Below are positions 6,015-32,810 of a stretch of DNA of 44,112 bases, piece by piece. Origin of the DNA: Gammaproteobacteria bacterium (GTDB lineage Bacteria; Pseudomonadota; Gammaproteobacteria; Steroidobacterales; Woeseiaceae); contig JAADHU010000079.1 of NCBI GenBank assembly GCA_013151645.1, positions 1 to 44,112 on the forward strand, given 5' to 3'. How positions within the stretch are numbered: position 1 is the stretch's first letter; each line of letters opens with the position of its first letter. Position numbers and translations under genes: made by a program. A model generated the notes under the pieces. It was given only the letters and a program-made list of their open reading frames with translations, searched no databases and was not told the DNA's origin.

Positions 6015-6764
6015 ATGCGTAGGCCAGTAGGTCCCGATGAACTTGCTGCGATCGCCGAGCATCTTGATTCGGATCGTTTGCAGCCCGGTTCGATGATGCA
6101 GATCGATGAGCGAGCCATTGTTCTGGACCTCGGGATCGGCAGCACAGCGCTTGGGGAGTCGTTGTCGAATATTTCGGTCGAGCGTCTTGCCCGGCTTGTC
6201 GATCAGGCGATGGCCACTGCAGGGACTGAATTCGCTTTCGGGCGCTGGGGTGAGGCACGAGAACTCTATAGCAGCGATTTGTTTGACAATGACTCGCCCG
6301 ACACTACCGAACCGCGGGTCGTGCACATGGGTATTGACGTCTTTTGCAAAGCGGAGACGGTCGTCTGCACACCGCTCGCCGGGCGTGTCCATATCAAGGC
6401 CAACAATACGGCCGAGCTGGACTATGGGCCAATGTTGATTCTCGAGCATGCGACCGCGACCGGTGAGTCGTTCTATTCCCTGTACGGCCACCTGAGTCTT
6501 AGCGGCATCGCGCATCTGGAGGAGGGTCAGAATGTACAAATCGGAGAGCCGATTGCGACCATCGGTCGTCCGCCGGAGAACGGGAACTGGCCACCGCATC
6601 TGCATTTCCAATTGATTCTGGACTTACTTGGGCGAGGCGCGGATTTTCCCGGCGTTGCCATGCGTAGCCAACAGGAAACATGGCTCGCGTTGTCGCCACT
6701 GCCCGCCATGTTTTTCCCGCAATTCGATCGGCATAAACTCGACGGACGCGGTCACACAACGTGA
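6015..6764 (+). CDS. M23-fold (LytM-like) protein without export signal
   Basis: About 249 aa. The C-terminal half is an M23/peptidase family domain: HMGIDVFCKAETVV (the H-x3-D motif), a turn PLAGRV, LYGHLS and PPHLHFQL (HxH). The zinc ligands H, D and H are therefore all present. The first 100 residues are not a signal peptide or coiled coil but a cytosolic-looking domain (VLDLGIGS...FAFGRWGEAREL). This resembles the M23-containing module fused to class III aminotransferases in AGXT2-like fusion proteins, here standing alone. The start is ATG 6015, with TTTGGAA upstream; an earlier GTG inside the preceding gene is less likely. It is 22 bases after the D-aminoacylase and 19 before the symporter. 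A metabolic or regulatory role is possible instead of wall hydrolysis. Confidence 0.75.
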   Translation: MRRPVGPDELAAIAEHLDSDRLQPGSMMQIDERAIVLDLGIGSTALGESLSNISVERLARLVDQAMATAGTEFAFGRWGEARELYSSDLFDNDSPDTTEPRVVHMGIDVFCKAETVVCTPLAGRVHIKANNTAELDYGPMLILEHATATGESFYSLYGHLSLSGIAHLEEGQNVQIGEPIATIGRPPENGNWPPHLHFQLILDLLGRGADFPGVAMRSQQETWLALSPLPAMFFPQFDRHKLDGRGHTT

Positions 6765-6783
6765 CTGCCTGAGCGCCTGATTC

Positions 6784-8265
6784 GTGGAAACGTCGTTGCA
6801 TTTTCTGGACTTCATTGCGATGGCCCTCTATTTCGCGGTTCTCATCTGGATCGGCGTCAGTGTCGCGCGGTCGGGACGGGGTGAAGGAGAGAGCGAGTCA
6901 TTTCTTGCAGCCGATCGCAATATGAATCTCGTGCAGACGACTTGCAGCACCGCCGCAACGGATCTCGGCGGTGGATTCAGTATCGCCATGGGTGGTCTGG
7001 GTTTCACGCTCGGAATTTCAGGTTCGTGGCTTATCGCGATTTCGGGCATCAGTATCGTCATGGTCTCTTTCCTGATGGTGCCAAGGGTCAAGAGCTGGTC
7101 TGATCGCGTTAAAGGTTTGACCACCGGAGATATGTTCGAGGCACGTTTTGATCGTCGCACCGGAACCGTTGCAGCCGTTGTGATAGGTCTTGCCTGGTTT
7201 ACGTTTGTCGGTGGTCAAATCATTGCCGGCGGCAAGCTTTTGCAGGTGACACTGGGAATGAATTTGACGGTCGCAGTGGCGCTGTCGGGTGCCGTCATAC
7301 TCGCGTATACCGCCATGGGCGGGTTGAAAGCGGTTATTTATACGGACGTGTTCCAGATGTTCGTGTTAATGATCGGTATCGTTTTCATTGCCGTGCCAAT
7401 TGGCCTGATCGAGGTTGGCGGCTGGAACGGAATTGTGGAACACTTCAGCGCTTCGGCAGACACGGCCAGCCTCGTCGACTGGGGTGCTGTTGGCTGGAAA
7501 CAGGCGCTCGGCTGGTTCTTTGCCATTTTCCCGGTGTGGTTTATTTCGATCGCCGCCATGCAGCGCATCGTGGCTGCACGTGATGTGAAAACGGCTCGAC
7601 GAGCCTTCTTTCTGACCGGTATTCCGATCGAGTGGCCACTCTTCGCGATCGGCAGTACCCTGATTGGCCTTATTGCCCGGATGCTGCTCCCGGAGATCGA
7701 AGACGCTGAATTCGCGACGCCAATGATTCTCATGAAGCTGCTGCCGGCGGGTATCACTGGAATTGTAATTGCGGCGTACATTGCGGCCGTCATGTCGACC
7801 GCAGACTCATGCCTGATCGGGCCGGTCGCCATTTTCACCAATGATATCTACCATAAATACCTGCGTCCCGACGCTGACGAAAAGTCACTGGTTAGAGTCG
7901 CGCGTATCGCCACCATCGTGCTCGGCGTTCTGGCTATCGGTATTGCCTACCTGGTGCCCAACGTTCTGAAGCTGATTCTTTATGCCTATACATTCGGTGC
8001 GGCCGGAATCTTTTTCCCCGTGCTTGGCCTGCTGTTCTGGCGTCGGACGACCGCGACTGGCGCATTCTGGAGCATGCTCTGCGGAGGTACGTCTGCGGTT
8101 GTCTGGGCGATGCTCGGCGAGCCGCTGGGTTTCGCGGCGTCGTACACGGGATGGACAATCGGGCTGCCGGTCTTGATCATCGTGTCGCTATTGACCGATC
8201 ACAGCCCGGAAGAGGACGTTGAAGTTTTCGCAGCGATTAAAGTAAAACGCGGTGGCACCTCGTGA
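6784..8265 (+). CDS. sodium:solute symporter (SSF family)
   Basis: 493-aa inner-membrane transporter with about 13 hydrophobic segments, the usual SSF length. Recognisable family stretches are the unwound first helices (GGGFSIAMGGLGF), GGLKAVIYTDVFQMF and the sodium-site helix AAVMSTADSCLIG, where Ser/Thr coordinate Na2. The start is GTG at 6784, the first codon that includes the whole first helix. It follows the D-aminoacylase and M23-fold genes with short gaps, so its solute may be the product of those enzymes, such as an amino acid, peptide or sugar acid. Specificity cannot be read from the sequence. Confidence 0.9.
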   Translation: METSLHFLDFIAMALYFAVLIWIGVSVARSGRGEGESESFLAADRNMNLVQTTCSTAATDLGGGFSIAMGGLGFTLGISGSWLIAISGISIVMVSFLMVPRVKSWSDRVKGLTTGDMFEARFDRRTGTVAAVVIGLAWFTFVGGQIIAGGKLLQVTLGMNLTVAVALSGAVILAYTAMGGLKAVIYTDVFQMFVLMIGIVFIAVPIGLIEVGGWNGIVEHFSASADTASLVDWGAVGWKQALGWFFAIFPVWFISIAAMQRIVAARDVKTARRAFFLTGIPIEWPLFAIGSTLIGLIARMLLPEIEDAEFATPMILMKLLPAGITGIVIAAYIAAVMSTADSCLIGPVAIFTNDIYHKYLRPDADEKSLVRVARIATIVLGVLAIGIAYLVPNVLKLILYAYTFGAAGIFFPVLGLLFWRRTTATGAFWSMLCGGTSAVVWAMLGEPLGFAASYTGWTIGLPVLIIVSLLTDHSPEEDVEVFAAIKVKRGGTS

Positions 8266-14505: not shown

Positions 14506-14704
14506 CGGAACTCCCCAGGTATCAGCCGACAGGACATCAGGATAGTACCCCAGCCAACAGGTGCATCGAGTAGCAATCGGACGATTGCACGGCAATTGCC
14601 CGCAGCAGGCGTTGCGAATGGCGAACCACTTGAGTAATTAGTCGTGTTGATGCGGCCGGTAAGGAACTAGACTAGACTTCGCCAAGGCGTCAGGGGAGAT
14701 GAAT

Positions 14705-16744
14705 GTGCTAACGAGGCTTGTTCTGCTAACGGGTTTCGCCCTGCTATCGTCGGTGACCAGCGCCGACCTCAGGACACTGATGCCTGAGGACGTGTTGCAT
14801 CAGATCGCGGAAGAAACGTCGGGTGAAGCGGCGAAGCGCAATCTCGATACACTGACGCTGAATCACCGCATGCGTGGCAGCGATCAATTCGATCGTGCAA
14901 GCACGCATATTGTGCAGCAACTGCGACAATACGGACTCGACGAGGTAGCCGTCCTGGAGTACGTGGCCGATGGCGAGACGATGTTCGGTACGCAGAAGTC
15001 CCGCAAGGTTTGGGACGTTCGTTTCGCTGAACTGTGGGAGCTGGTTGAGGTAGATGGTACATTCGTGCGCCAGCGGCGGCTGGCAAACTGGGATGCGGTG
15101 CCGTTGTCGCTCGCGCAGGATAGTCTTTCCGGCGAGGTAACGACGACGCTGGTCGATATCGGCGCCGGTACCGCGGACAGCGACTACGACGGCAAGGACA
15201 TTCGCGGGCGCCTGGTTTTGACGTCGAGTCAGCCTGGCCGTGTTGTCGAGCGAGCGGTGGGCGAGCTTGGGGCGGCGGGCATTATTTCCTATGCGCCCAA
15301 TCAACGTTCGGCCTGGTGGAAAGAAGACGATCGGCTGGTGCGCTGGGGCCATCTGAGCAGTTTTCCGAAAACTGAATCGTTCGGTTTCATGATTTCCCTT
15401 GGCGAGGCGCGGAAGTTCCAGGCGCGCCTGGCGGCAGGGGAAATCATCAATTTGCATGCGAAAGTCGATGCCAGTCACGAGGTTGGTCAGTATCGATTCG
15501 CGCAGGCAGCGATTCTCGGTGCCGATGCGCAAGTCGGTCGCGAGGAAATTATCCTGACCTGTCACCTGGATCATCCGCGGCCGGGCGCAAACGACAATGC
15601 GTCAGGTTGTGTGTCCATTCTGGAAACCGCACGTACATTGAGCAAGCTGATCGGGGACGGAGTGCTGCCCCGTCCGGCGCGCACGATTCGTTTCCTGTGG
15701 CCGGCGGAGATTGAAGGCAGCATTATTTACCTCACGCAGCGTAAGGACACCGCGCTGCTCAAGGCCAACATTCACATGGACATGGTGGGCGGCGGTCCGC
15801 AGACGAAATCGGTTTTTCGCATTTCCGGTGGACCGATCAGCGTGCCCACCTTTATCGCCGACGTTGGCTTTGAGATTGGCCATTTCGTGAACGAGCAAAC
15901 GGAACGATTTGCGAGTGGCGACGATGTACGTTTTCCGCTGAACGCGCCCGAGGGTGGCAAGGAGCCTTTGCTCGCGTTAATGGAAGGCATTGATATGGGC
16001 AGTGACCACGATGTCTTTCGTGAGGGATCCTGGCGAATACCGGGGCTGTACTTGCACGACTGGCCGGACCGGTACATCCACACGAATTTCGACTCGGCCG
16101 CCATGATTGATCCTACCAAGCTAAAGCGAGCGGCTTTCATTGGTGCTGTTTCGGCACTTTATCTGGCAAACTTCTCGGCACGGGATGTACCGGCGTTGCT
16201 GCAACTTCTCAGACGCAACGCGCTCGCTCGCAGTGGCACGTTGCTCGAACGCATTGAGCCGCTGGACGCGTACGACGCGGCGGCTGTGTCCCGCATTCTG
16301 TTCGCCGTCGAACGACGCAAGATCCACAGCATCGAAGCTTTCGCCGAACTGCCCGCAACGTCGCATGATGTGGCGGTCAGATTTATCGCGGAGCTTGAGG
16401 CGCTGATCGCGACACCGGAGGGAGGCGATGCAGGTGGCGGGGATACCACTGTGTACTCCCGTAACGACAACGTACAGGGCACGATGAGCGCATTTGGCTA
16501 TTCCTACATGCGCGACAAGTACGGTGACGAGTCTTATGCCCGATTGCGCCTGCCTGAATATTCCGGCAGCCACGGAAGTGCCGGGGAATACCTCTACGAA
16601 GCGCTCAACCTGGTTAATGGCAAGCGTACGGTGAGTGAGATTCGCGATTGGCTGACAGCAGAACTGGGTCCGGTTCCGCTGGATTTGGTTAGTGAATATC
16701 TACGTGCGCTGGAGCAAATTGACGTCATACAGGTTCTGCAGTGA
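14705..16744 (+). CDS. exported M28-type peptidase with C-terminal winged-helix-like domain
   Basis: About 679 aa. A signal peptide (LTRLVLLTGFALLSSVTSA) is followed by a region with a PA-like insertion (GRLVLTSSQPGRVVE) and an M28 zinc-peptidase core: TCHLDHPRPGANDNASG (HxD and bridging Asp), WPAEIEGS (Glu pair, written E-I-E), HMDMVGG and GSDHDVFREG (last His). The last 60 residues (NLVNGKRTVSEIRDWLTAEL, then a helix) look like a PqqD/winged-helix module as seen at the end of DUF4910-type aminopeptidases. AGGGGAG touches ATG 14699 with no spacing but is 6 bases from GTG 14705, so I place the start at 14705. Predicted exported aminopeptidase. Confidence 0.82.
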   Translation: MLTRLVLLTGFALLSSVTSADLRTLMPEDVLHQIAEETSGEAAKRNLDTLTLNHRMRGSDQFDRASTHIVQQLRQYGLDEVAVLEYVADGETMFGTQKSRKVWDVRFAELWELVEVDGTFVRQRRLANWDAVPLSLAQDSLSGEVTTTLVDIGAGTADSDYDGKDIRGRLVLTSSQPGRVVERAVGELGAAGIISYAPNQRSAWWKEDDRLVRWGHLSSFPKTESFGFMISLGEARKFQARLAAGEIINLHAKVDASHEVGQYRFAQAAILGADAQVGREEIILTCHLDHPRPGANDNASGCVSILETARTLSKLIGDGVLPRPARTIRFLWPAEIEGSIIYLTQRKDTALLKANIHMDMVGGGPQTKSVFRISGGPISVPTFIADVGFEIGHFVNEQTERFASGDDVRFPLNAPEGGKEPLLALMEGIDMGSDHDVFREGSWRIPGLYLHDWPDRYIHTNFDSAAMIDPTKLKRAAFIGAVSALYLANFSARDVPALLQLLRRNALARSGTLLERIEPLDAYDAAAVSRILFAVERRKIHSIEAFAELPATSHDVAVRFIAELEALIATPEGGDAGGGDTTVYSRNDNVQGTMSAFGYSYMRDKYGDESYARLRLPEYSGSHGSAGEYLYEALNLVNGKRTVSEIRDWLTAELGPVPLDLVSEYLRALEQIDVIQVLQ

Positions 16745-18886: not shown

Positions 18887-19633
18887 TCAGGCGGCGACGG
18901 GTAGCTGGTGCAGGCCTCTGCAGTGACTTTGCCAGCGATAAGAATCCCGGTCTGTAAGCTTGGGTCGTATTCTTGTAGTTATTTCACCGCGTGTGTCACG
19001 ATTCAACGCATAATGGCACCGATGGTCGTTGTAGAACTCTTCAAAGCTGAGAAGCTTGTTCTCCAGGTCGCGAGCAGTCCAAAAGGGCACGAAGTCGAGG
19101 TACTCTCGCCTGATCGTCCCGATCAGTCGTTCCAACAACGGATGCGAAATCGGTAGGTAAGGCACAGTTTTCACTTCGGTTACCTCGAGTATCCGAAGGT
19201 TAGCCTTCCATTGATGGAATCTGAAAAGCGGATCATTATCGCTGCTGATGTACCTTGGTGAAGCGGCCTCACGGATCGCACGGTTGAACATCCGACAAAG
19301 CGATGGCCCATCCACTGCGCCCGCGTGTACGCCGAAGCCAATGATTCGACGTGTGTACTGATCCATGACGACGAGGACCCAATGGCTCTTGAGCATGAGG
19401 GATTCGCAGCGGAAAAGATCGATGCTCCACAAGCTGTCTTTCGCGTGACCGAGTACTGATAACCAGGAGGGCCTGTATGCGCCGGGGTCAGGTCGATAGT
19501 GCTTTGCCAGAACTCGCCTTATCACGTCCTTGTTGATCTCAAGGTCGAATACAAGACAAAGTTGTCGGGCAGGGGTCCCGCAAAAGTCCCGCACTGGTAA
19601 TGTTGAAGAAAAAAGCGGCGAACGCCTAGGCAC
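18887..19633 (-). pseudogene. DDE (rve) transposase, N-terminally truncated
   Basis: From about 19575 downward the frame reads as the catalytic half of an rve-domain transposase: EINKDVIRRVLAKHYRP, SLWSIDLFRCES (first catalytic Asp), WVLVVMDQYTRRIIGFG, YISSDNDPLFRFH (second Asp) and HPLLERLIGTIRREYLD (Glu), with a normal end WQSHCRGLHQLPVAA. The DDE triad is intact, but the N-terminal DNA-binding region, roughly the first third of the usual protein, is missing. The 19576-19633 part of the frame does not look like transposase. Just upstream of the join is a doubled GCGGGAC motif (minus strand, about 19574-19592), possibly an old element end. IS481/IS3-like; exact family not assigned. Probably non-functional. 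Confidence 0.75.
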
Positions 19634-22427: not shown

Positions 22428-23753
22428 ATGGCAAACGTATTCTACCGTGAGCCGACACATACATACCCGATAGCGGTTCGCGGGGAGGGCGTATACCTCT
22501 ATGACGCGAGCGGCAAGCAATACCTCGATGGCAGTGGTGGGGCCGCGGTGTCGAGCCTCGGTCACGGCAATGCGACGGTCATTCAGGCGCTCAAAGATCA
22601 GCTCGATTCACTGGCATTTGCGCACACCACCTTTTTTACCAACGCACCGCAGGAGGCGCTGGCTGCCGGCCTGGTCAGCAAGTTTGGCGAGCAAGATGCC
22701 AAAGTCTATTTCCTCTCCGGCGGGTCCGAGGCAAACGAAGCAGCCATCAAGCTTGCACGCCAATACTGGGTTGCCAAAGGAGAAGAGGGAAAGCATCTGT
22801 TCCTGAGTCGCCGGCAAAGCTATCACGGCAATACGCTCGGTGCGCTTTCCTTGTCCGGCAATCCGGGACGGCGCGAAGTATTCGAGCCGCTCCTGCAGGA
22901 CTGGCCCAAGATCTCGCCGTGTTACGCCTACCGCTTCAAGCAGTCCGGCGAGTCGGATGTAGATTATGGTTTACGTTGTGCGGCGGAACTGGAAACCGAG
23001 ATTGAACGGCTCGGGTCGGACAACGTGGCCGCCTTTTTCGCCGAAACCGTTACCGGGGCGACGATGGGAGCGCTACCGGCCGTCGAGGGTTATTTTCGCG
23101 AAATTCGTGAGATATGCGATCGCCACCGTGTGTTGCTGATTCTGGATGAAGTTATGTCCGGTTGCGGCCGAACCGGAAGTTATTTCGCCTGGGAACAGGA
23201 AGGCATTCGGCCCGACATTGTTACCATGGCAAAAGGCCTTGGCGGTGGCTATCAACCGATCGCCGCTGCTTTGTCACGCGGTTTTATTCAGGAAGCGATC
23301 GTTGAACGTTTTGCCGGTTTTGCACACGGACATACTTACGTCGGTCATCCGACGGCTTGCGCTGCAGGTGTCGCCGTCGCCCAGGTGATTGAAGAACGGG
23401 ATTTGTTGTCGAATGTGAGCCAGGTCGGCGCCTATCTGAGGGCGGCCTTGGAAGACACGTTCAGCGAGCATCCGTACGTAGGCGACATACGCGGGCGGGG
23501 ACTTTTTATTGGTATTGAACTCGTGACGGATCGAGCGACCCGGCAACCGCCCAGGGCTGAGCTGGGATTGCCGCACATCATTCGCGACCTGGCGATGGAA
23601 AACGGACTGATCTGCTACCCGGCCGGGGGTACGGCCGACGGGCGCGACGGCGTGCATATCCTGTTGGCACCGCCCTTTATCTACACCGAAGCGCATGCCG
23701 ATGAACTGGTCGAAAAAATCGCCAGGACACTGACAGACATCGTAGTTACCTAG
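22428..23753 (+). CDS. class III PLP-dependent aminotransferase
   Basis: 441-aa fold-type I aminotransferase of the omega-amino-acid group. It shows YLYDASGKQYLDGSGG at the N terminus, the PLP-phosphate loop SGGSEANEAAIKLA, the cofactor Asp in LILDEVMSGCGRTGSYFAWE, and the Schiff-base Lys269 in TMAKGLGGGY. The C terminus contains the small domain with GDIRGRGLFIGIELV. Members move an amino group from an omega- or beta-amino acid to pyruvate or 2-oxoglutarate. It is the first gene of a four-gene run: its TAG is followed directly by the ATG of the BKACE gene. The substrate is probably linked to a beta-keto acid handled by that enzyme (inference). Confidence 0.9.
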   Translation: MANVFYREPTHTYPIAVRGEGVYLYDASGKQYLDGSGGAAVSSLGHGNATVIQALKDQLDSLAFAHTTFFTNAPQEALAAGLVSKFGEQDAKVYFLSGGSEANEAAIKLARQYWVAKGEEGKHLFLSRRQSYHGNTLGALSLSGNPGRREVFEPLLQDWPKISPCYAYRFKQSGESDVDYGLRCAAELETEIERLGSDNVAAFFAETVTGATMGALPAVEGYFREIREICDRHRVLLILDEVMSGCGRTGSYFAWEQEGIRPDIVTMAKGLGGGYQPIAAALSRGFIQEAIVERFAGFAHGHTYVGHPTACAAGVAVAQVIEERDLLSNVSQVGAYLRAALEDTFSEHPYVGDIRGRGLFIGIELVTDRATRQPPRAELGLPHIIRDLAMENGLICYPAGGTADGRDGVHILLAPPFIYTEAHADELVEKIARTLTDIVVT

Positions 23754-24596
23754 ATGCTTTTACCTCATCAAGCCCTGGCGGGCGAACGCGTCATCATTAT
23801 GTCGGCGCCGAACGGTGCTCGTCGCACTGCGGACGATCATCCTGCATTGCCCATCACTCCCGACGAGCTTGCGGATTGCGCACAGTCCCTGGTCGAGGAG
23901 GGTGTCTCGGTCCTGCATCTTCATGTGCGGGATAAACATCAGCGCCATACGCTCGATGCTGATCGTTATCGTGCGGCCATCGAGGCTGTTCGTGCACGGG
24001 TGGGCGACTCGCTGGTGCTGCAGGTCACCACCGAGGCTGTCGGCGTTTTTACGCGCGATGAGCAGATGGCCATGGTCCGGCATGTACGGCCAGAGGCCGT
24101 TTCTCTCGGGCTCCGGGAGTTGTGTCCCGATGACAACGCCGAGGTTGAGGCGGCCGGGTTTTTCGCCTGGCTGCGCAAGGAAAAAATATGGCCGCAATAC
24201 ATCTTGTATTCAGCGGACGACGTCCGGCGTTTCGAGCACATGCGACGACGTGGCGTGTTCGCCGACGAGTACCCGTTCTGTCTATTGGTGATGGGCCGTT
24301 ATTCCGATGCCCTTGAGGGCGATTTGTCGGAACTCACCGCCATGCTGGGGGCGGCAGACTGTCGCGAATTTCCGTGGGCGGTGTGTTGTTTCGGGAAACA
24401 CGAAAATACAGCCATGCTCGAAGCGACCGAGGCAGGCGGTCATGTTCGCATCGGCTTTGAAAACAATTTGTGGTTGCCCGACGGAAGCGTTGCGCGAGAT
24501 AATGCACAACTCATCAATACCTATCGATCATCGGCAAGGTCTTGCGGCAGAATTCCGGCCACGGCGGATGACATCAGAAACGAGTGCATGAATTGA
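23754..24596 (+). CDS. BKACE family enzyme (beta-keto acid cleavage, DUF849)
   Basis: 280-aa TIM-barrel zinc enzyme. Hallmarks: SAPNGARRTADDHPALPIT near the N terminus, the zinc pair in VLHLHVRD (His55, His57), VTTEAVG, and the C-terminal GFENNLWLPDG that carries the family Glu. BKACE enzymes condense a beta-keto acid with acetyl-CoA to give acetoacetate and a new acyl-CoA; substrates across the family range from dehydrocarnitine to 3-oxoadipate-like acids. The start codon touches the previous stop (TAG-ATG), and the end overlaps the racemase by 13 bases, both signs of coupled translation. The specific keto acid is unknown. Confidence 0.9.
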   Translation: MLLPHQALAGERVIIMSAPNGARRTADDHPALPITPDELADCAQSLVEEGVSVLHLHVRDKHQRHTLDADRYRAAIEAVRARVGDSLVLQVTTEAVGVFTRDEQMAMVRHVRPEAVSLGLRELCPDDNAEVEAAGFFAWLRKEKIWPQYILYSADDVRRFEHMRRRGVFADEYPFCLLVMGRYSDALEGDLSELTAMLGAADCREFPWAVCCFGKHENTAMLEATEAGGHVRIGFENNLWLPDGSVARDNAQLINTYRSSARSCGRIPATADDIRNECMN

Positions 24597-25336
24597 ATAC
24601 GAAGCGGTCGGGCGATACACGCATTGTGGGCGTTATCGGTGGTATGGGACCCGAAGCGACAGTCGACTTCATGTCCAAGGTGATTGCCCTGACGCCGGCG
24701 CGTTGTGATGACGACCATATACGAATGATCGTTGACAACAATCCAAAAATGCCTGACCGCCAGGCGGCCATCAAGGGAGACGATTCTGCCGTGCGCGCAG
24801 CACTGGTCGAGATGGCCCGACAACTGCAGGCAGCGGGAGCCGATTTTCTGGTCATGCCCTGTAACACCGCACACGCGTTCGTGGACGACGCGATTCGGGC
24901 GATAGACGTTCCCTTTGTACACATTGTCGAGGAGACGGTCAGCGAGATTGAGCGCGAGTATCCGCAGGTGCTGCAGGTGGGTATTCTGGCGACGGATGCC
25001 TGTCTGATCGCCGGCGTGTACCAGCATGCCCTGCAGACCGCGGACAAGAAACCAATCTTGCCAGGGACGGACGATCAACACGAATGCATGCATTTGATCG
25101 CTCGCATCAAGGCGGGCGATGCGAACGAGGAAGTACGCAAGCGCATGGTCGGTCTGGCGGAACGACTGATCGAGGCAGGGGCCAATGCCGTGATCGCCGG
25201 CTGCACGGAAATCCCACTTGTTCTGGGCAACAATGATATAAAGGTACCTCTCATCTTATCGACCGATGTTTTGGCGAAACGCACCGTGGCGCTTGCGACA
25301 GGCGTGGCTGAAATGCCGGACATTGACAGATCATAA
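24584..25336 (+). CDS. aspartate/glutamate racemase family protein
   Basis: 250-aa PLP-independent amino-acid racemase fold. [19 protein letters not shown], a loop [10 protein letters not shown], the first catalytic Cys93 in [10 protein letters not shown] and the second, Cys207, in [10 protein letters not shown] are all present, so a two-base racemase mechanism is possible. Length fits the Asp racemase branch. The start is GTG 24584 or TTG 24593; both overlap or touch the BKACE stop at 24594-24596. It sits in the middle of a four-gene catabolic operon, suggesting it interconverts enantiomers of an amino-acid intermediate. Some relatives are decarboxylases or isomerases, so the activity remains open. 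Confidence 0.87.
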
Positions 25337-25346
25337 GGACGAAGCC

Positions 25347-26357
25347 GTGCTGCTATCGCGATTTTCCCGAGTATCCCTCGCTCACCTGCCCACACCGCTG
25401 GAGTTCCTGCCACGCCTGACCCGGCATCTGGGCGGTCCCGATATTTACGTTAAACGCGACGATTGCACAGGTCTGGGCACCGGCGGCAACAAGACACGCA
25501 AACTTGAGTTCCTGATGGCGGACGCCCAGGACAAGAACGCGACGGTGATTATTAGCCAGGGTGCCGTGCAGTCGAATCACGCACGCCAGACCGTGGCGGC
25601 AGCTTGCAAACTCGGTATGAAATGCGAACTCGTGTTTGAAAAGCGGGTCAGCGATGCCAGCGAACCGTATCTGCAATCGGGCAACGTGTTTCTCGATCGC
25701 CTTTTCGGGGCGAACATTCGCGAGGTGGAGAAGGGCACTGATATGGATGCCGCCATGCAATCCATTGCTGATGAGCTTGCCGCTGACGGTGAGACGCCTT
25801 ATATCATTCCAGGCGGTGGTTCTAACCCGATCGGCGCGCTGGGTTACGTTGACTGTGCACTCGAATTGATCGTGCAGGCGAATACTCGGGATCTGGTTCT
25901 GGATCACGTCGTGCACGCGACCGGGAGCGCAGGGACCCAGGCGGGATTGATCGTGGGACTCAAGGCGATGCACAGCGGCATTCCGCTGCTCGGCATTGGC
26001 GTGAATGCAGGCAGAACCGAGCAGGAAGAAAAAGTTTACAAACTGGCCTGCAGCACCGCCGACCTGATCGGTGCGCCGGGATTGATCGAACGTGACGACA
26101 TTGTCGCCAATTGCGATTACGTGGGTGATGGTTACGGCGTGCCGACAAAAAGCATGAACGATGCGATCTTGTTGCTGGCGCGACTGGAAGGTCTGCTGTT
26201 CGATCCGGTATACAGCGGCAAGGGGCTGGCAGGCCTGATCGATCTGGTCGGTAACGGATATTTCCGCGACGCGAAAAATGTTGTCTTTATCCACACGGGT
26301 GGTGCTGCCGGATTGTTTGCCTACAGAGATCGTTTGTCCACGGATCCGAGTTCTTAA
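25347..26357 (+). CDS. L-cysteate sulfo-lyase / D-cysteine desulfhydrase-like PLP enzyme
   Basis: 336-aa fold-type II PLP enzyme. [20 protein letters not shown] contains the cofactor Lys49, [12 protein letters not shown] the substrate-side Asn/His, and [12 protein letters not shown] the phosphate loop; [12 protein letters not shown] and [12 protein letters not shown] complete the family pattern. The sequence style is closest, from memory, to CuyA (L-cysteate to pyruvate, sulfite and ammonia) and also fits DcyD (D-cysteine to pyruvate, sulfide and ammonia); ACC deaminase is a more distant relative. GTG 25347 with AAGGA 8 bases upstream is preferred; an ATG at 25266 lies inside the racemase gene. 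It is the last gene of the operon. Confidence 0.85.
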
Positions 26358-26493
26358 CATTTCTTTGGACTTTCCTGTATCGCATAGTGATTTTGTGCAT
26401 TGAAACCCATTGACCGGCCATTAAACTAGCCGCTCAATTCCTGTCGTATTCAATCCATTCCGGTTGCGTTTGCAACCCGTCCGGGGGAACCCA

Positions 26494-28728
26494 GTGAGTG
26501 AAGTAAGCCATCGTCCAGGTTCGCGAGTGCGCTTGGCAATATTTGCTGTCGTGGCCTGTTTTAGCCAGGCAATGGCGCAAACGCAGATTGCGCCGGAGCA
26601 TCGACCGCGGCCAACGGCCGAAGCGTCACCGCTGAGCATCGTGCCCAAACTCGATGGCCGGGTCGTTGGCGATCGAGCCTGGGAGGGCATGGTGCCGGCG
26701 ACGGGATTTACGCAGGTGCAACCGGATGAGGGTATTCCGGCGACGCAGAAGACGGAAGTCTTTATCGGTTATACGGATACAGCGTTGTACATCGGTGTTA
26801 TTGCCTACGAAGAAGACCCGAGTCGCATCGTTGTTTCGGATAGTCGGCGTGATTCGACGCTCGACGATGGCGCCAGCTTCCGCGTCATCATCGATGGCCT
26901 GCTGGACCGGCAAAACGGTTACCTGTTCGGCACCAATCCGGCCGGGGTCGAATACGATGCGCAGGTGATCAAGGAAGGGTCGGCTGGCCAGTTCGGTTCT
27001 GGCGGCGGCGGCTTCAACCTGAACTGGGACGGGAGTTGGAACGTTGAGGCGACGTTGACCGAGTTCGGCTGGAGCGCCGAAATGGAAATTCCGTTTACGA
27101 CCTTGCGTTACGGAAAGGACAAGGAGCAAACCTGGGGCATCAATTTCCAGCGAAATATTCGACACAACAACGAAATCGTCTACTGGGCGCCGCTCAGCCG
27201 GCAACGCAATCTGAATCGCGTTTCCGATGCTGGTTCGCTCGAGGGCATCAAGCCCGTCGCGGCGAAAAACCTGCAAATTACACCTTACGCGCTCACGCGA
27301 ACGACCAGCGGCCGGGGCTTGCCTGGATCCGACAGTGACCAGGAAATCGGTGTAGACGTAAAGTACTCGCTCACACCAAGCCTCACGCTCGACGGCACCT
27401 ACAACACCGATTTTGCTCAGGTCGAGTCTGACGACTTCGTCGTGAACCTGGATCGATTCAATATTTTTCTGCCGGAAAAACGGCCGTTCTTCCTCGAAAA
27501 TGCCGGACAGTTTACGGTGGGAGATGCGCGGGCGGTCGAGCTATTTTTTAGCCGCCGGATCGGCATCAACAGGGGGGCGGCCGTACCGATTGAAGGTGGG
27601 GTACGTTTGTCCGGCAAGGTCGGTACGAGTACAAATCTCGGGTTTCTCTACATGCGTGATGAAGGCATCAATGGTGTCTCGCCGCAGAACGACTTTATCG
27701 TTGCTCGAGTGAACCAGGAGTTGCCGAATCGCTCCTCCATTGGCGCAATGGTTGTCAGTCGCGACGGCAACGGTAGCCTCGGTGTACCGAGCGCACAGGA
27801 TGAAAACCAGACCTACGCGGTCGACGGGCGCTGGGGTATCGGTGAAAATACCTTGCTGGAAACATGGATTGCGAAGACCTCGACGCCGGGGCTGGATGGA
27901 GACGACTACGCTTTCGCACTAAAAGCGAGCTATGACTCGGCGAAATGGTTCGGGCGACTGAATTACACCGAGATATCCGAGGATTTCAATCCGGAAGTTG
28001 GCTTTCTTCGGCGTGATGATTATCGTCGCGGACAAGCTTTTCTCATGCGACGTTTCCGCCCTGACGATTTTTTGGGGCTGCTCGAAATCCGGCCGCATGC
28101 GGTAATTCAAAATTTTTGGGATCTGGACGGGTTTTTGGAAACCGGATTCCAGCATTTTGATACGCATTGGGAGTTCAAGAACGGTTATCGCATCGATACA
28201 GGTGTTAATTTCCGAAAAGACGGGTTTGAAGAACCGTTCCAGATTACGCCCGGAATATTCGTGCCGGCCGGTACAACGACGGGTTCGGAGGGCCAGATAT
28301 CAGCAAACACGGACCTGTCCGCACCGCTCAGTTTTAGTATGCGGGCTTTTTTCGGCACGCGATTCGGTGGCGACCGGGTGATACTCCAACCGACCGTCAG
28401 GTTTCGGGTTGGCGACACGTTCAATTCAGAATTGTCCGTCGTCTACAATGATTTTGACTTGCCAATACCCGGTGGCCAGTTTTCGGTAACGCTAACTCGC
28501 GTGCGATTTTCTTACTCGTTTTCACCGAAAATTCTGTTGCAGGCGCTGGTCCAGTACAATGGCCAAACCGACATTTTGTCGACAAATTTGCGATTCTCGT
28601 TGCTGAGGACAGCAAGTTCCGGTCTCTACGTGGTGTACAACGAAATTGACGAGCAGTTTCCGGGTGCGCCGCCCAGAGGGCGCGAGATCATTATCAAATA
28701 CAACTATTTGTTCGACGTGTTCAAGTAA
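26494..28728 (+). CDS. DUF5916 outer-membrane protein with CBM9-like N-terminal domain
   Basis: 744 aa. GTG 26494 is preferred because GGGGGAA lies just upstream; the in-frame TTG at 26464 falls inside a small hairpin (GGTTGC-GTTT-GCAACC, 26462-26477) and has no ribosome site. A signal peptide ends near SQAMAQ. Residues about 45-230 resemble the carbohydrate-binding family 9-like fold (PKLDGRVVGDRAWEG, TEVFIGYTDTALYIGV, WNVEATLTEFGWSAEMEIPF). The rest alternates aromatic and polar strands typical of a beta barrel and ends in a short strand with terminal Phe (KYNYLFDVFK). In this family the barrel is thought to sit in the outer membrane. It is followed after 29 bases by the P1 peptidase, suggesting joint transcription. 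Confidence 0.85.
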   Translation: MSEVSHRPGSRVRLAIFAVVACFSQAMAQTQIAPEHRPRPTAEASPLSIVPKLDGRVVGDRAWEGMVPATGFTQVQPDEGIPATQKTEVFIGYTDTALYIGVIAYEEDPSRIVVSDSRRDSTLDDGASFRVIIDGLLDRQNGYLFGTNPAGVEYDAQVIKEGSAGQFGSGGGGFNLNWDGSWNVEATLTEFGWSAEMEIPFTTLRYGKDKEQTWGINFQRNIRHNNEIVYWAPLSRQRNLNRVSDAGSLEGIKPVAAKNLQITPYALTRTTSGRGLPGSDSDQEIGVDVKYSLTPSLTLDGTYNTDFAQVESDDFVVNLDRFNIFLPEKRPFFLENAGQFTVGDARAVELFFSRRIGINRGAAVPIEGGVRLSGKVGTSTNLGFLYMRDEGINGVSPQNDFIVARVNQELPNRSSIGAMVVSRDGNGSLGVPSAQDENQTYAVDGRWGIGENTLLETWIAKTSTPGLDGDDYAFALKASYDSAKWFGRLNYTEISEDFNPEVGFLRRDDYRRGQAFLMRRFRPDDFLGLLEIRPHAVIQNFWDLDGFLETGFQHFDTHWEFKNGYRIDTGVNFRKDGFEEPFQITPGIFVPAGTTTGSEGQISANTDLSAPLSFSMRAFFGTRFGGDRVILQPTVRFRVGDTFNSELSVVYNDFDLPIPGGQFSVTLTRVRFSYSFSPKILLQALVQYNGQTDILSTNLRFSLLRTASSGLYVVYNEIDEQFPGAPPRGREIIIKYNYLFDVFK

Positions 28729-28757: not shown

Positions 28758-29951
28758 ATGCGGAAATTGAATCAGCAAGGACCGGTCATGGTCACTGCAC
28801 TGTTACTCGGCCTGTGTATGGCGACGATCGCAGGCGCGGCGGAAGAACGGCCGCGGGCGCGAGATATTGGTCTCATTGTCGGCACATTTGAAGCGGGCCC
28901 GTTGAATGCGATCACCGACGTTAGCGGTGTCAAAGTTGGTCATACCACGGTTATCGAGGGCGACGACATTCGCACCGGCGTGACCGCGATTATTCCCGCT
29001 GCGGGAAACCTGTACACCCATCCGATTCCGGCCTGGATTCATGTTGGCAACGGCTACGGCAAGATGGTCGGTGAAACGCAGGTGCGTGAATTCGGTGAAA
29101 TCGAAACGCCCATCCTGCTGACCTGCACATTGTGTGTCTGGAGCGCGGCGAATGCACTCAAGGACTGGACGTACGAACAGCCGGGCATGGGTGAGCATAC
29201 AGTGAACCCGATTGTTGGCGAGACGAACGACTCACGGGTCAACAACATGTGGGCGGACCCGATTGGGCATGACGAGGTTTTCGCGGCGCTCGCCAACGCA
29301 AGTGATGGACCGGTCGCGGAAGGGAGTGTCGGCGCGGGTACAGGTACGCAGGCTTTCGGCTGGAAAGGCGGCATCGGCACGAGTTCACGTGTACTTCCGG
29401 AGGCACTCGGTGGATATACGATCGGCGTGCTGGTGCAGACCAACTACGGTGGCACGCTGGTGATCAACGGTGCACCCGTAGGTCGGGAGTTGGGCACCTA
29501 TGCCTACAGCGGTGAGCTGCAGGCGGCGAAAACCGACGGTGACAAGGAAGACGGTTCCATCATGATGGTGGTGGCAACCAATGCGCCACTCAATGCACGC
29601 AGTCTGGACCGCCTGGCGATGCGCGCGATTATGGGCCTGGCGCGAACCGGTTCTTACGCGAGCAACGGTTCCGGCGACTATGTCATCGCGTTCTCAACGA
29701 ATCCGTCCGTCCGCAAACCAAGAATCAGCGATGCGCCAGTCAAAGAAGAAGTACTGGTCAACGCCTCCATGTCACCCCTGTTTGCAGCCACGGCTGAAGC
29801 GACGGAAGAAGCGATCTACAACGCGATCTTCAAAGCCACGACAGTGACAAGCTCCCGCGGAGAACTCCGCGCCATCCCTATCGAAGACCTGCAACGCATC
29901 CTGAAGAAACACGGTGTCCTGAACTGGGATAAATCACTACCACCGAAGTAA
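28758..29951 (+). CDS. P1 family (DmpA/S58) aminopeptidase, exported
   Basis: 397 aa with an N-terminal hydrophobic signal (VMVTALLLGLCMATIAGAA). It shows the DmpA/BapA pattern: NAITDVSGVKVGHTTV, GETNDSRVNN, EGSVGAGTGTQAFGWKGGIG and TSSRVLPEALGGYTIGVLVQ. Family members self-cleave before a Ser that becomes the N-terminal nucleophile; the candidate Ser is at about residue 209-210 in GIGTSSR. Known activities are D-/L-aminopeptidase and beta-peptidyl aminopeptidase. GAGGAGGTGG upstream of ATG 28758 is a strong ribosome site. Paired with the DUF5916 protein and convergent with an exported amidohydrolase, it fits breakdown of unusual peptides outside the cytoplasm. Confidence 0.9.
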   Translation: MRKLNQQGPVMVTALLLGLCMATIAGAAEERPRARDIGLIVGTFEAGPLNAITDVSGVKVGHTTVIEGDDIRTGVTAIIPAAGNLYTHPIPAWIHVGNGYGKMVGETQVREFGEIETPILLTCTLCVWSAANALKDWTYEQPGMGEHTVNPIVGETNDSRVNNMWADPIGHDEVFAALANASDGPVAEGSVGAGTGTQAFGWKGGIGTSSRVLPEALGGYTIGVLVQTNYGGTLVINGAPVGRELGTYAYSGELQAAKTDGDKEDGSIMMVVATNAPLNARSLDRLAMRAIMGLARTGSYASNGSGDYVIAFSTNPSVRKPRISDAPVKEEVLVNASMSPLFAATAEATEEAIYNAIFKATTVTSSRGELRAIPIEDLQRILKKHGVLNWDKSLPPK

Positions 29952-29996: not shown

Positions 29997-31292
29997 CTAA
30001 AGCCTCTTATAGACCACCCCGCCCTTCATCACAAAACTCACCCGCTCCATCGCCGTGATGTCATCGAGCGGATCCCCCGGGACGGCAATAATATCGGCCT
30101 GCTTGCCGACCACCAGGCTGCCATGCGTCTCGGCGATATCAAGAAATTTCGCCGCAACACTCGTGGCGGACTGGATGGCTTCCATGGCCGGCATACCCGC
30201 TTTGACCATGAGCGCGAATTCCTGTGCGTTGTCGCCGTGCGCAGAAACACCGGTATCGGTGCCGAACACAATCGGCACGCCGTAAGCATAGGCTTTGGCA
30301 AATGTACTCTCGATTAATGGCCCGATGGCGGCCGCCTTCGGTCGTACGAGGTCCGGGAAGAATCCGTCAATTTTGGCTTTTTCGGCCACCCAGTTACCGG
30401 CAAGAATGGTCGGCACGTAATAGGTGCCGCGTTGTTTCATCAGGCGCATGACCTCTTTGTCCATGAAAGTGCCGTGCTCGATGGAAGCGACACCGGCCAT
30501 GACGGCGCGTTTCATACCTTCTGTACCGTGTGCGTGTGCAGCGACACGCAGCCCATAGTCGGCGGCGGTATCCATAATGGCCTGAAATTCATCGGCTGTG
30601 AATTGCGGGTTCTGGCCGCTCTTGGCAACGCTGAGAACGCCGCCGGTGGCGGTGATTTTAATCCAGTCTGCGCCGTCCTTGTAGCGTTGGCGGACGGATC
30701 GGCGCGCGTCTTCGACACTGTTTACGATGCCGTCACGCGGACGACCAGGGTCGCCAAGGAGATGATTCGCCCAGCCATTGGTGCCGTCGGCGTGACCGCC
30801 GGTCGAGGCCAGCGATTTGCCGGCACTGAAAACCTTCGGCCCGACGACATCGCCGGCGTCGATTGCTTTGCGCAAGGCAATGGTGACATTGAATGCATCG
30901 CCGAGATTGCGCACGACCGTAAAACCGGCGTCCAGTGTACGCCGTGCATACCGGGCGGCATCGAACGCGTAGTCGGCTTCATTCATTGTGAAGCGTCGCA
31001 GCCGGCTGTCCGGGCTGTACTGCCCGGTCAGGTGGACATGCATGTCCATCAGGCCTGGCAACACGGTCTGGTTTCTGAGATCGACGACGGAGTCGCCCAT
31101 ACCTGCGGCGGTATAGCCCTTTTCGATGCTCTTGATGACCGGGCCGCTGACGCGCACGGTCATCTCGGTCATGACACGATCCGATTCGCCGTCGATCAGG
31201 CGGCCGGCATGGATCAGCGTATCGGCACTGGCGATGTTGGCGAATAAAACCAATAGCAGGATACCCTGTAAGGACGCGATGGCATTTTTCAT
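29997..31292 (-). CDS. exported amidohydrolase (imidazolonepropionase/prolidase-like)
   Basis: 431-aa amidohydrolase-superfamily enzyme. Signal peptide [20 protein letters not shown] cleaved near ASA. Metal and active-site motifs: GLMDMHVHL (HxH), [10 protein letters not shown] (the Lys usually carbamylated in this group), [18 protein letters not shown] and the late Asp in VFGTDTGV. This subgroup includes exported enzymes that cleave Xaa-Pro dipeptides or N-acyl compounds; substrate unassigned. ATG 31292 gives an intact signal peptide, with a weak GAG upstream; the extension to 31382 would add 30 residues before it. It is divergent from the NSS transporter and convergent with the P1 peptidase. 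Confidence 0.88.
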
Positions 31293-31433
31293 AGTGGCGA
31301 GCTCGCTGGTTGAATGGCTGCGGACGATAGAAAGAGGCGGACATTCTAGCGCCGGTGAGCCCTTGTCAGCAATTAGTGTCACTATTTGTGCGAGAATACG
31401 GCGATCAGAACAAGTGCAAATCAGGGGGAGAGT

Positions 31434-32810
31434 ATGGCGGGATCAACGGGCTCCGGAGAGCAGTGGTCATCACGATGGGGTTTCTTGCTGGCGGCGGTTG
31501 GCTTCGCGGTTGGCATGGGCAACATCTGGCGGTTTCCGTATGTTCTCGGCGAGAACGGCGGCAGCGCTTTCCTGTTCGTCTACCTGGCGTGCGCCCTGGC
31601 TATCGGTTTGCCGCTTCTGATCACCGAGTTGACGATCGGCCGGCGCGGCGGTCGGAGCGCATCGGGCAGCATCCAGGCGGTGGCTGGCGAAACCGGTGCC
31701 AGCAAGGCCTGGGGCATGGTTGGCAGCCTCGGGGTTTTCTGTGCGTTTGTCATCCTTTCCTATTACACGGTGATCTCCGGCTGGACACTGGATTATTTTT
31801 TTCGTGCTGCCGGCGGGGACCTGGTTAACATCGATTCCGCAGGCTCCAAAACAATGTGGAACAGCCTGATGAACAGCCCGGGTCGCTTGCTGGTCTGGAA
31901 TACCGTCGTGCACGTGCTGATCGTTCTTGTTATTCGACAGGGCGTGCAATCGGGGATCGAGCGGGCGGTCAAGATATTGATGCCCGCGCTGTTCATAACG
32001 CTCATCATTATGGTGATCTATGGCGTTGTGGCCGGTGACATGGAAGCCGCGATGCGGTTCCTGCTCGAACCGGACTTCTCCAAAGTTTCCTTTCGCACCG
32101 TCATGATCGCGATCGGACAGGCGTTTTTCTCGATCGGTATCGGCATGGGTTCGTTGATTGTATTTGGCTCCTACATGCCGAAGGACTTTTCCATTCCGCG
32201 TTCGGCGACCGCCGTGATTTTCCTGGATACCGGCGTCGCATTGCTGGCGGGTTTCGCAATATTTCCGCTGGTATTTGCCTACGGCCTGGAAACCTCAAGT
32301 GGCACCGGGCTGATTTTTGAAACGTTGCCACTGGCATTCGGCCAGATGCCCGGCGGACGAATTTTCGGCTCAATCTTCTTTGTACTCCTGATTAGCGCCG
32401 CGATTTCATCGTGCCTCGGTCTTGCCGAAGGCGTCGTCTCCTGGGTTGACGAACATTGGGGCATCAAGCGAGAGAAGGGCATTTTGCTGACGGTCGGGGC
32501 GGGCTGGCTGCTGGGTATATTGTCGATCATGTCGCTGGGCGACTGGTCGGAATTCTATCCGCTGGACTTTATTCCGGCATTTGCAGAGCAGACGATATTT
32601 GTCGCACTGGATTTCCTTGCCGCAAATATCTTGTTGCTGGCGGGCGGACTATTGCTGTCAGTTTTCTTCGGCTGGCTGGTGCCGAAACAACTCAAGCTGG
32701 ACGAGATGGGAGTTGAAGACGGGCTGTTTTTCGCGTTTTGGCGCACCATGATCCGATACATTATTCCACCCATCCTCCTGGTCGTTCTGGCTTTGGGTCT
32801 TACCCAATAA
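31434..32810 (+). CDS. sodium-dependent transporter, NSS/SNF family
   Basis: 458-aa inner-membrane transporter with 11-12 helices, bacterial NSS length. Helix 1 carries the family signature [20 protein letters not shown], which forms the substrate and Na1 sites. Other family stretches are [14 protein letters not shown] and [19 protein letters not shown] (helix 6 unwound region). GGGGGAG 6 bases before ATG 31434 sets the start; an upstream frame from 31386 is not needed. NSS members usually import amino acids or related amines with sodium. It is divergent from the exported amidohydrolase, which could release its substrate (inference). Confidence 0.92.

Follow-up and report, generated by a model that had tools for sequence, protein, structure and literature searches.

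Four stacked genes on a Woeseiaceae contig

The window analyzed here is a stretch of 44,112 nucleotides (contig JAADHU010000079.1 of assembly GCA_013151645.1) from a gammaproteobacterium of the family Woeseiaceae, and its subject is a cluster of four genes on the forward strand. In order, these encode a class III aminotransferase (AT) of the PRK07483 group (NF005685; positions 22428 to 23753, ATG start); a protein of the beta-keto acid cleavage enzyme (BKACE) family that lacks the catalytic-base glutamate and retains the zinc ligands H55, H57, and E236 (23754 to 24596); a protein of the Asp/Glu racemase family, the probable cysteate racemase CuyB (24584 to 25336, GTG start); and a pyridoxal phosphate-dependent beta-lyase, probably the D-cysteate sulfo-lyase CuyA, with D-cysteine desulfhydrase as the alternative (25347 to 26357, GTG start). 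Each protein scored well above the cutoff of its Pfam family (Aminotran_3, BKACE, Asp_Glu_race, and PALP, respectively). The TAG stop codon of the AT gene directly abuts the ATG of the BKACE-like gene, the racemase start overlaps the end of the BKACE-like gene by 13 bases, and the lyase GTG lies 10 bases past the racemase stop. The GTG at 25347, with AAGGA at 25335 to 25339, is most likely the lyase start, and K49 is numbered from it. The residues K269 of the AT, H55 and H57 of the BKACE-like protein, C93 and C207 of the racemase, and K49 of the lyase are all present in the translations. An earlier note, made from the sequence alone, had described the same junctions and residues, all of them correctly.

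The four genes are real, and their order is kept beyond chance, because the AT, BKACE-like, and racemase genes succeed one another in a fixed order and orientation in seven genomes of four genera (g1, g2, g9, and g10), namely, G000, G001, G002, G009, G482, G485, and G488. These are 7 of the 17 genomes of the family that carry the BKACE-like gene. The lyase gene comes next in six of the seven; in G485, the contig stops before it. Outside the genus of the window, identity to the window proteins is 65 to 70% for the AT, 57 to 65% for the BKACE-like protein, 50 to 57% for the racemase, and 68 to 80% for the lyase. The search for the same families as neighbors in other genomes, which the earlier note had proposed, thus finds them outside the strain.

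The racemase and lyase as a probable cysteate pair

The racemase scored 266.7 bits against the curated model of the cysteate racemase CuyB (NF052483; cutoff, 190), and the lyase scored 525.3 bits against that of the D-cysteate sulfo-lyase CuyA (NF052482; cutoff, 450), in support of the earlier guess of a cysteate-like substrate. In the available part of PMC11382572, CuyB is described as converting L-cysteate to D-cysteate, from which CuyA produces pyruvate, ammonia, and sulfite. The window pair resembles this system in its curated scores, its catalytic lysine, and its two cysteines and differs from it in gene context: the AT and BKACE-like genes lie upstream in the seven family genomes, within the family, the pair is often surrounded by DUF5916, S58, and other peptidase genes, and no TauE gene is present within the window. 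Judging from the sequences, the racemase and lyase are probably the known CuyB-CuyA pair; a lyase acting on D-cysteine is a serious alternative.

Several findings weigh against a cysteate-specific pair. The lyase is also above the cutoff of the broader D-cysteine desulfhydrase family model TIGR01275, and the protein of PDB entry 7ysk, which is named a D-cysteine desulfhydrase, outscores the lyase of the window on the CuyA model, with 552 bits. The CuyB and CuyA searches each put 1 of 14 control genomes over the cutoff. Finally, the four TauE genes of the genome all lie outside the window; TauE is present in all 14 control genomes, so that its distribution says little.

In one alternative, the racemase has a broader amino acid specificity and the lyase acts as a D-cysteine desulfhydrase, so that the pair would salvage cysteine from peptides and release H2S instead of sulfite. 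Such a role would fit the peptidase-rich surroundings described below, the score of 7ysk, and the matches above the cutoffs of TIGR01275 and, for the racemase, of the general amino acid racemase model TIGR00035. However, the lyase falls under the cutoff of each of three D-cysteine desulfhydrase equivalog models, and the two equivalog models that are exceeded both indicate cysteate; we hold cysteine salvage to be the less likely reading. The assignment of the lyase as an ACC (1-aminocyclopropane-1-carboxylate) deaminase was rejected, as the alignment places a serine where ACC deaminase has a glutamate after the stacking tyrosine. At locus L185 (positions 6092 to 7904; contig C41 of genome G000), one of the four TauE-family genes directly precedes the gene of a lyase paralogue that scored 349 bits, under the CuyA cutoff; the lyase gene of the window has no such partner.

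The aminotransferase and the BKACE-like protein

The AT scored 639.5 bits against NF005685 (PRK07483; cutoff, 485). Its best PDB match, 3i4j, is titled just "Aminotransferase, class III," and the other matches are scattered over many transaminases. Among 397 genomes of the phylum, the BKACE-like gene was found in 33 (E value of 1e-30) and the AT, over the cutoff, in 60; the two occur together in 29 of the 33, where 5.0 would be expected (a comparison that includes the window's genome and is uncorrected for relatedness). The four genomes with a BKACE-like gene and no AT over the cutoff are G215, G236, G272, and G313. The loci of five of the 33 genomes are not among the fetched stretches; by coordinates, the AT adjoins the BKACE-like gene in four of these (G426, G275, G268, and G273) and not in G323.

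The gene neighborhoods were compared across 44 BKACE-like loci, consisting of the window, L005 to L007, and 40 stretches picked by similarity to the window protein. A contig scan had yielded four BKACE-like loci, one of them on the contig of G001; L004 was omitted from the 44 because it lies on the same contig as L050. Contig ends cut several of the fetched stretches short. An AT gene (at least 45% identity) is present in the flank of 31 of the 44 loci. In 27, the two genes share a strand and are at most 70 bp apart, with the AT gene preceding the BKACE-like gene in 22 and following it in 5. In none of the 32 fetched loci that are not known to belong to the family was a racemase or lyase gene found beside the BKACE-like gene. 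The AT and BKACE-like genes are thus best described as a widespread two-gene module, separate from the racemase and lyase.

The sole model exceeded by the BKACE-like protein is the Pfam family itself (217.5 bits; cutoff, 24.8). The best specific model is that of Kce (NF052387), on which the protein scored 131.9 bits against a cutoff of 382. The lysine fermentation pathway that includes the transaminase Kat also uses Kce. Lysine fermentation was rejected as the role of the window genes on account of the Kce score, which lies far under the cutoff; no search for other lysine fermentation genes was made. As an acyl-CoA beta-transaminase, Kat is presented in the available part of PMC3149608 as a beta-aminotransferase that was found through its gene context.

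The window protein has in common with Kce (2y7d) and with BKACE15 of Paracoccus denitrificans (8rip) the TIM barrel, the zinc ligands, the active-site tyrosine (Y152), and R232. It differs in that the motif E-x-E-x-Y of both enzymes reads Q-x-I-x-Y and the subfamily of the window protein has I150, N237, and R23 for E143 (Kce) or E171 (BKACE15), D231, and E14. I150 aligns with the catalytic-base glutamate and is an isoleucine in all 44 homologues, as N237 is an asparagine in place of Kce D231 in all 44; R23 replaces E14 in 42, with a tyrosine in L069 and L075. The replacement of Kce E14 by R23 would suit an acidic distal group on the substrate. The zinc ligands H55, H57, and E236 are found in 44 of 44, Y152 and R232 are also retained, and E94 and E122 are invariant. 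The selection of the sequences by similarity means that this invariance is valid inside that subfamily only. The other BKACE of the genome (L001) keeps E-x-E-x-Y.

In BKACE15, the E171L variant has no activity and E171D retains 5%, and R254 had been proposed as the base earlier, according to PMC11961710. The earlier note had the BKACE-like protein cleave a keto acid with acetyl-CoA. As far as residues can tell, acetyl-CoA-dependent cleavage is unsupported, because the glutamate that is essential in BKACE15 is an isoleucine in 44 of 44 homologues. What speaks for the classical chemistry is R232, the counterpart of R254 in the older proposal, which is kept in all 44; given R232, that chemistry may survive even where the glutamate is missing.

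Other reactions have precedents in the family. In the available part of PMC4922564, of seven BKACE groups, one is assigned negatively charged substrates, one decarboxylation, and one is not BKACE at all. BsfD of flavophos synthesis, as presented in part of PMC12871164, is a DUF849 member that runs other chemistry; it is like the window protein in that the chemistry of the family name fails, and it differs in having a phenylalanine for the tyrosine, which the window protein keeps while losing the glutamate. An AlphaFold model of the BKACE-like protein built with 29 sequences (mean predicted local distance difference test score, 94.9; predicted template modeling score, 0.93) has as its best solved match Kce 2y7f (Z score of 32.8, 2.5 Å over 264 residues), together with other DUF849 chains, followed by cis-epoxysuccinate hydrolase (Z score of 29.3), Obc1 (25.9), and ObcA (24.8). 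The model predicts a TIM-barrel fold, not a reaction.

The neighbors of the module point to the type of substrate. Among the 44 loci, 12 contain a TRAP fused permease, 11 a TAXI protein, and 6 a TctC-type protein, names that rest on annotated representatives; the presence of such genes suggests an anionic substrate in those loci. In L069 (9337 to 11297), L080, and L081, the BKACE-like gene is immediately preceded by a gene for a 3-hydroxyacyl-type dehydrogenase, and this position backs a 3-oxo acid as a plausible class of substrate for the BKACE-like protein. The dehydrogenases of L080 and L081 are closest to carnitine dehydrogenase models, under the cutoff, and the AT of L081 belongs to another class III group.

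Two further neighborhoods were recorded. At L087 (9256 to 16579), the BKACE-like and AT genes are followed by genes for a class V aminotransferase-fold protein, a class II amidotransferase-like protein, and 5-oxoprolinase-type subunits. In genus g12, the neighbors of the AT and BKACE-like genes include an Na/H antiporter and an AI-2E-type transporter and are uninformative.

A proposed composite operon and its surroundings

On balance, we favor a reading of the locus as a composite catabolic operon of the marine family Woeseiaceae, in which a cysteate branch and the AT-BKACE module are joined. The gene order, its conservation, the family scores, the lost glutamate, and the co-occurrence of the AT and BKACE-like genes are observed; substrates, direction, and shared regulation are what we infer. 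Going by the curated models and the published scheme, CuyB would racemize L-cysteate to D-cysteate and CuyA would beta-eliminate the latter to pyruvate, ammonia, and sulfite. From an anionic substrate, probably a beta-amino acid, the AT would make a 3-oxo acid; the BKACE-like protein, as a zinc TIM-barrel enzyme, would then consume this product by a reaction that dispenses with the usual catalytic glutamate. In part of the family, the AT-BKACE pair appears to have been placed upstream of the racemase and lyase, and their union in one operon would place both branches under a single signal.

The earlier note had instead drawn a single pathway of four enzymes, in which a beta-amino acid is deaminated, acetyl-CoA serves to cleave the resulting keto acid, and an amino acid portion of the same compound is racemized and beta-eliminated. 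The genes do touch or overlap, and they keep their order in the seven genomes, but most genomes with one half of the set lack the other half or carry it elsewhere. Among 107 genomes of the family, the BKACE-like gene is present in 17 (E value of 1e-60), the racemase is present in 78 (E value of 1e-40), and both are present in 16; 62 of the 78 racemase-bearing genomes are without a BKACE-like match. In 9 of the other 10 BKACE-bearing genomes, all nine of g12, the racemase gene is on another contig, and the tenth, G008, is without a racemase match. A tree of the 44 BKACE-like proteins, from which three g10 proteins found afterwards are excluded, places the window, G001, G002, and G009 in one clade (support, 99/96) with L005 and L052; the last two have neither an AT nor a racemase gene alongside.

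The racemase and lyase likewise occur by themselves. The lyase search covered 60 relatives, and the CuyA sample comprises 20 loci taken from 18 of them, with 18 loci belonging to the family and 2 to the same order. In 17 of these 20 loci the racemase lies at most 0.5 kb from the lyase, and a homologue of the AT or the BKACE-like protein (E value of 1e-8, more than 80 residues) was found in none of the 20 fetched stretches. Similarly, of 20 CuyB loci retrieved from outside the family, 11 have a lyase no more than 1.4 kb away, and neither the AT nor BKACE was found in any of those 20 stretches. Together with the 32 loci not known to be of the family and the absence of the glutamate essential in BKACE15, these distributions make a single linear pathway improbable.

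Some evidence nevertheless pulls toward one pathway and away from two modules. The racemase is present in 16 of the 17 BKACE-bearing family genomes (P = 0.02), which favors a shared pathway, and this co-occurrence leaves room for one that involves both halves. CuyB occurs with the AT in 10 of 29 genomes (4.4 expected) and with the BKACE-like gene in 6 of 29 (2.4 expected). The retention of the joint operon in four genera also points to one common pathway, and the joint operons of genera g9 and g10 are without the DUF5916 and S58 genes downstream.

It is quite improbable that the AT is the missing cysteate:oxo-acid aminotransferase, which interconverts sulfopyruvate and L-cysteate, with the BKACE-like protein handling a sulfonated oxo acid: the gene for that step is given as unknown in R. 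pomeroyi in the available part of PMC11382572, and the AT adjoins the pair in the window and co-occurs with CuyB beyond expectation, but the AT tracks the BKACE-like gene far more tightly (29 of 33), and its absence from the fetched CuyB and CuyA loci led us to reject it as a general cysteate aminotransferase.

The composite operon is followed by genes that often accompany the racemase and lyase. On the forward strand lie genes for a DUF5916 protein (26464 to 28728; Pfam DUF5916, 78.7 bits against 22.6) and an S58-family peptidase (28758 to 29951; Pfam Peptidase_S58, 364.3 bits against 23.9), both with a signal-like N terminus by eye. Next come, on the reverse strand, an amidohydrolase gene nearest to the Xaa-Pro dipeptidase family (29997 to 31382; NF051886, 401.6 bits, below the cutoff of 500) and, on the forward strand, a sodium-dependent transporter gene (31386 to 32810; NF037979, 141.5 bits against 50). 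DUF5916 and S58 genes lie next to the racemase-lyase pair in 10 of the 20 CuyA loci and, counting the window, G001, and G002, in 13 loci in total. M28, M24, and M14 peptidases are recurrent near the racemase-lyase loci, and the window contains an M28 peptidase gene at 14699 to 16744. The idea that the S58 peptidase supplies the AT with beta-amino acids was rejected, as this peptidase accompanies the racemase and lyase with no AT in 10 of 20 loci. Upstream of the locus, an open reading frame with a transposase-type integrase core occupies 18887 to 19633.

Because peptidase genes often surround the cysteate branch in this family, peptides are the probable origin of its substrate. PMC7082342 describes the Woeseiales as proteolytic. 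Neither that paper nor PMC12175321, both on the metabolism of Woeseiales or Woeseiaceae, uses the words cysteate, sulfonate, or racemase in its main text.

The locus combines known kinds of enzyme and adds one BKACE-like subfamily of interest. Searches of open-license papers found no described pathway with exactly these four enzymes together; the CuyB-CuyA half is described. More tentatively, the BKACE-like proteins linked to the PRK07483-type AT could form a distinct class whose new zinc chemistry on an acidic 3-oxo acid dispenses with the BKACE glutamate and perhaps also with acetyl-CoA. Together with the AT, they might constitute an undescribed two-step catabolic pathway (in 29 of the 397 phylum genomes) that in one lineage was wired into cysteate breakdown. 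If the favored reading of the locus holds, an annotation would be corrected, as acetyl-CoA dependence could no longer be presumed for genes of this kind labeled "beta-keto acid cleavage," and a specific, widespread two-enzyme module would be singled out whose substrate is open to a small assay panel. For the family itself, that reading also suggests a breakdown of protein-derived cysteate, which would yield sulfite.

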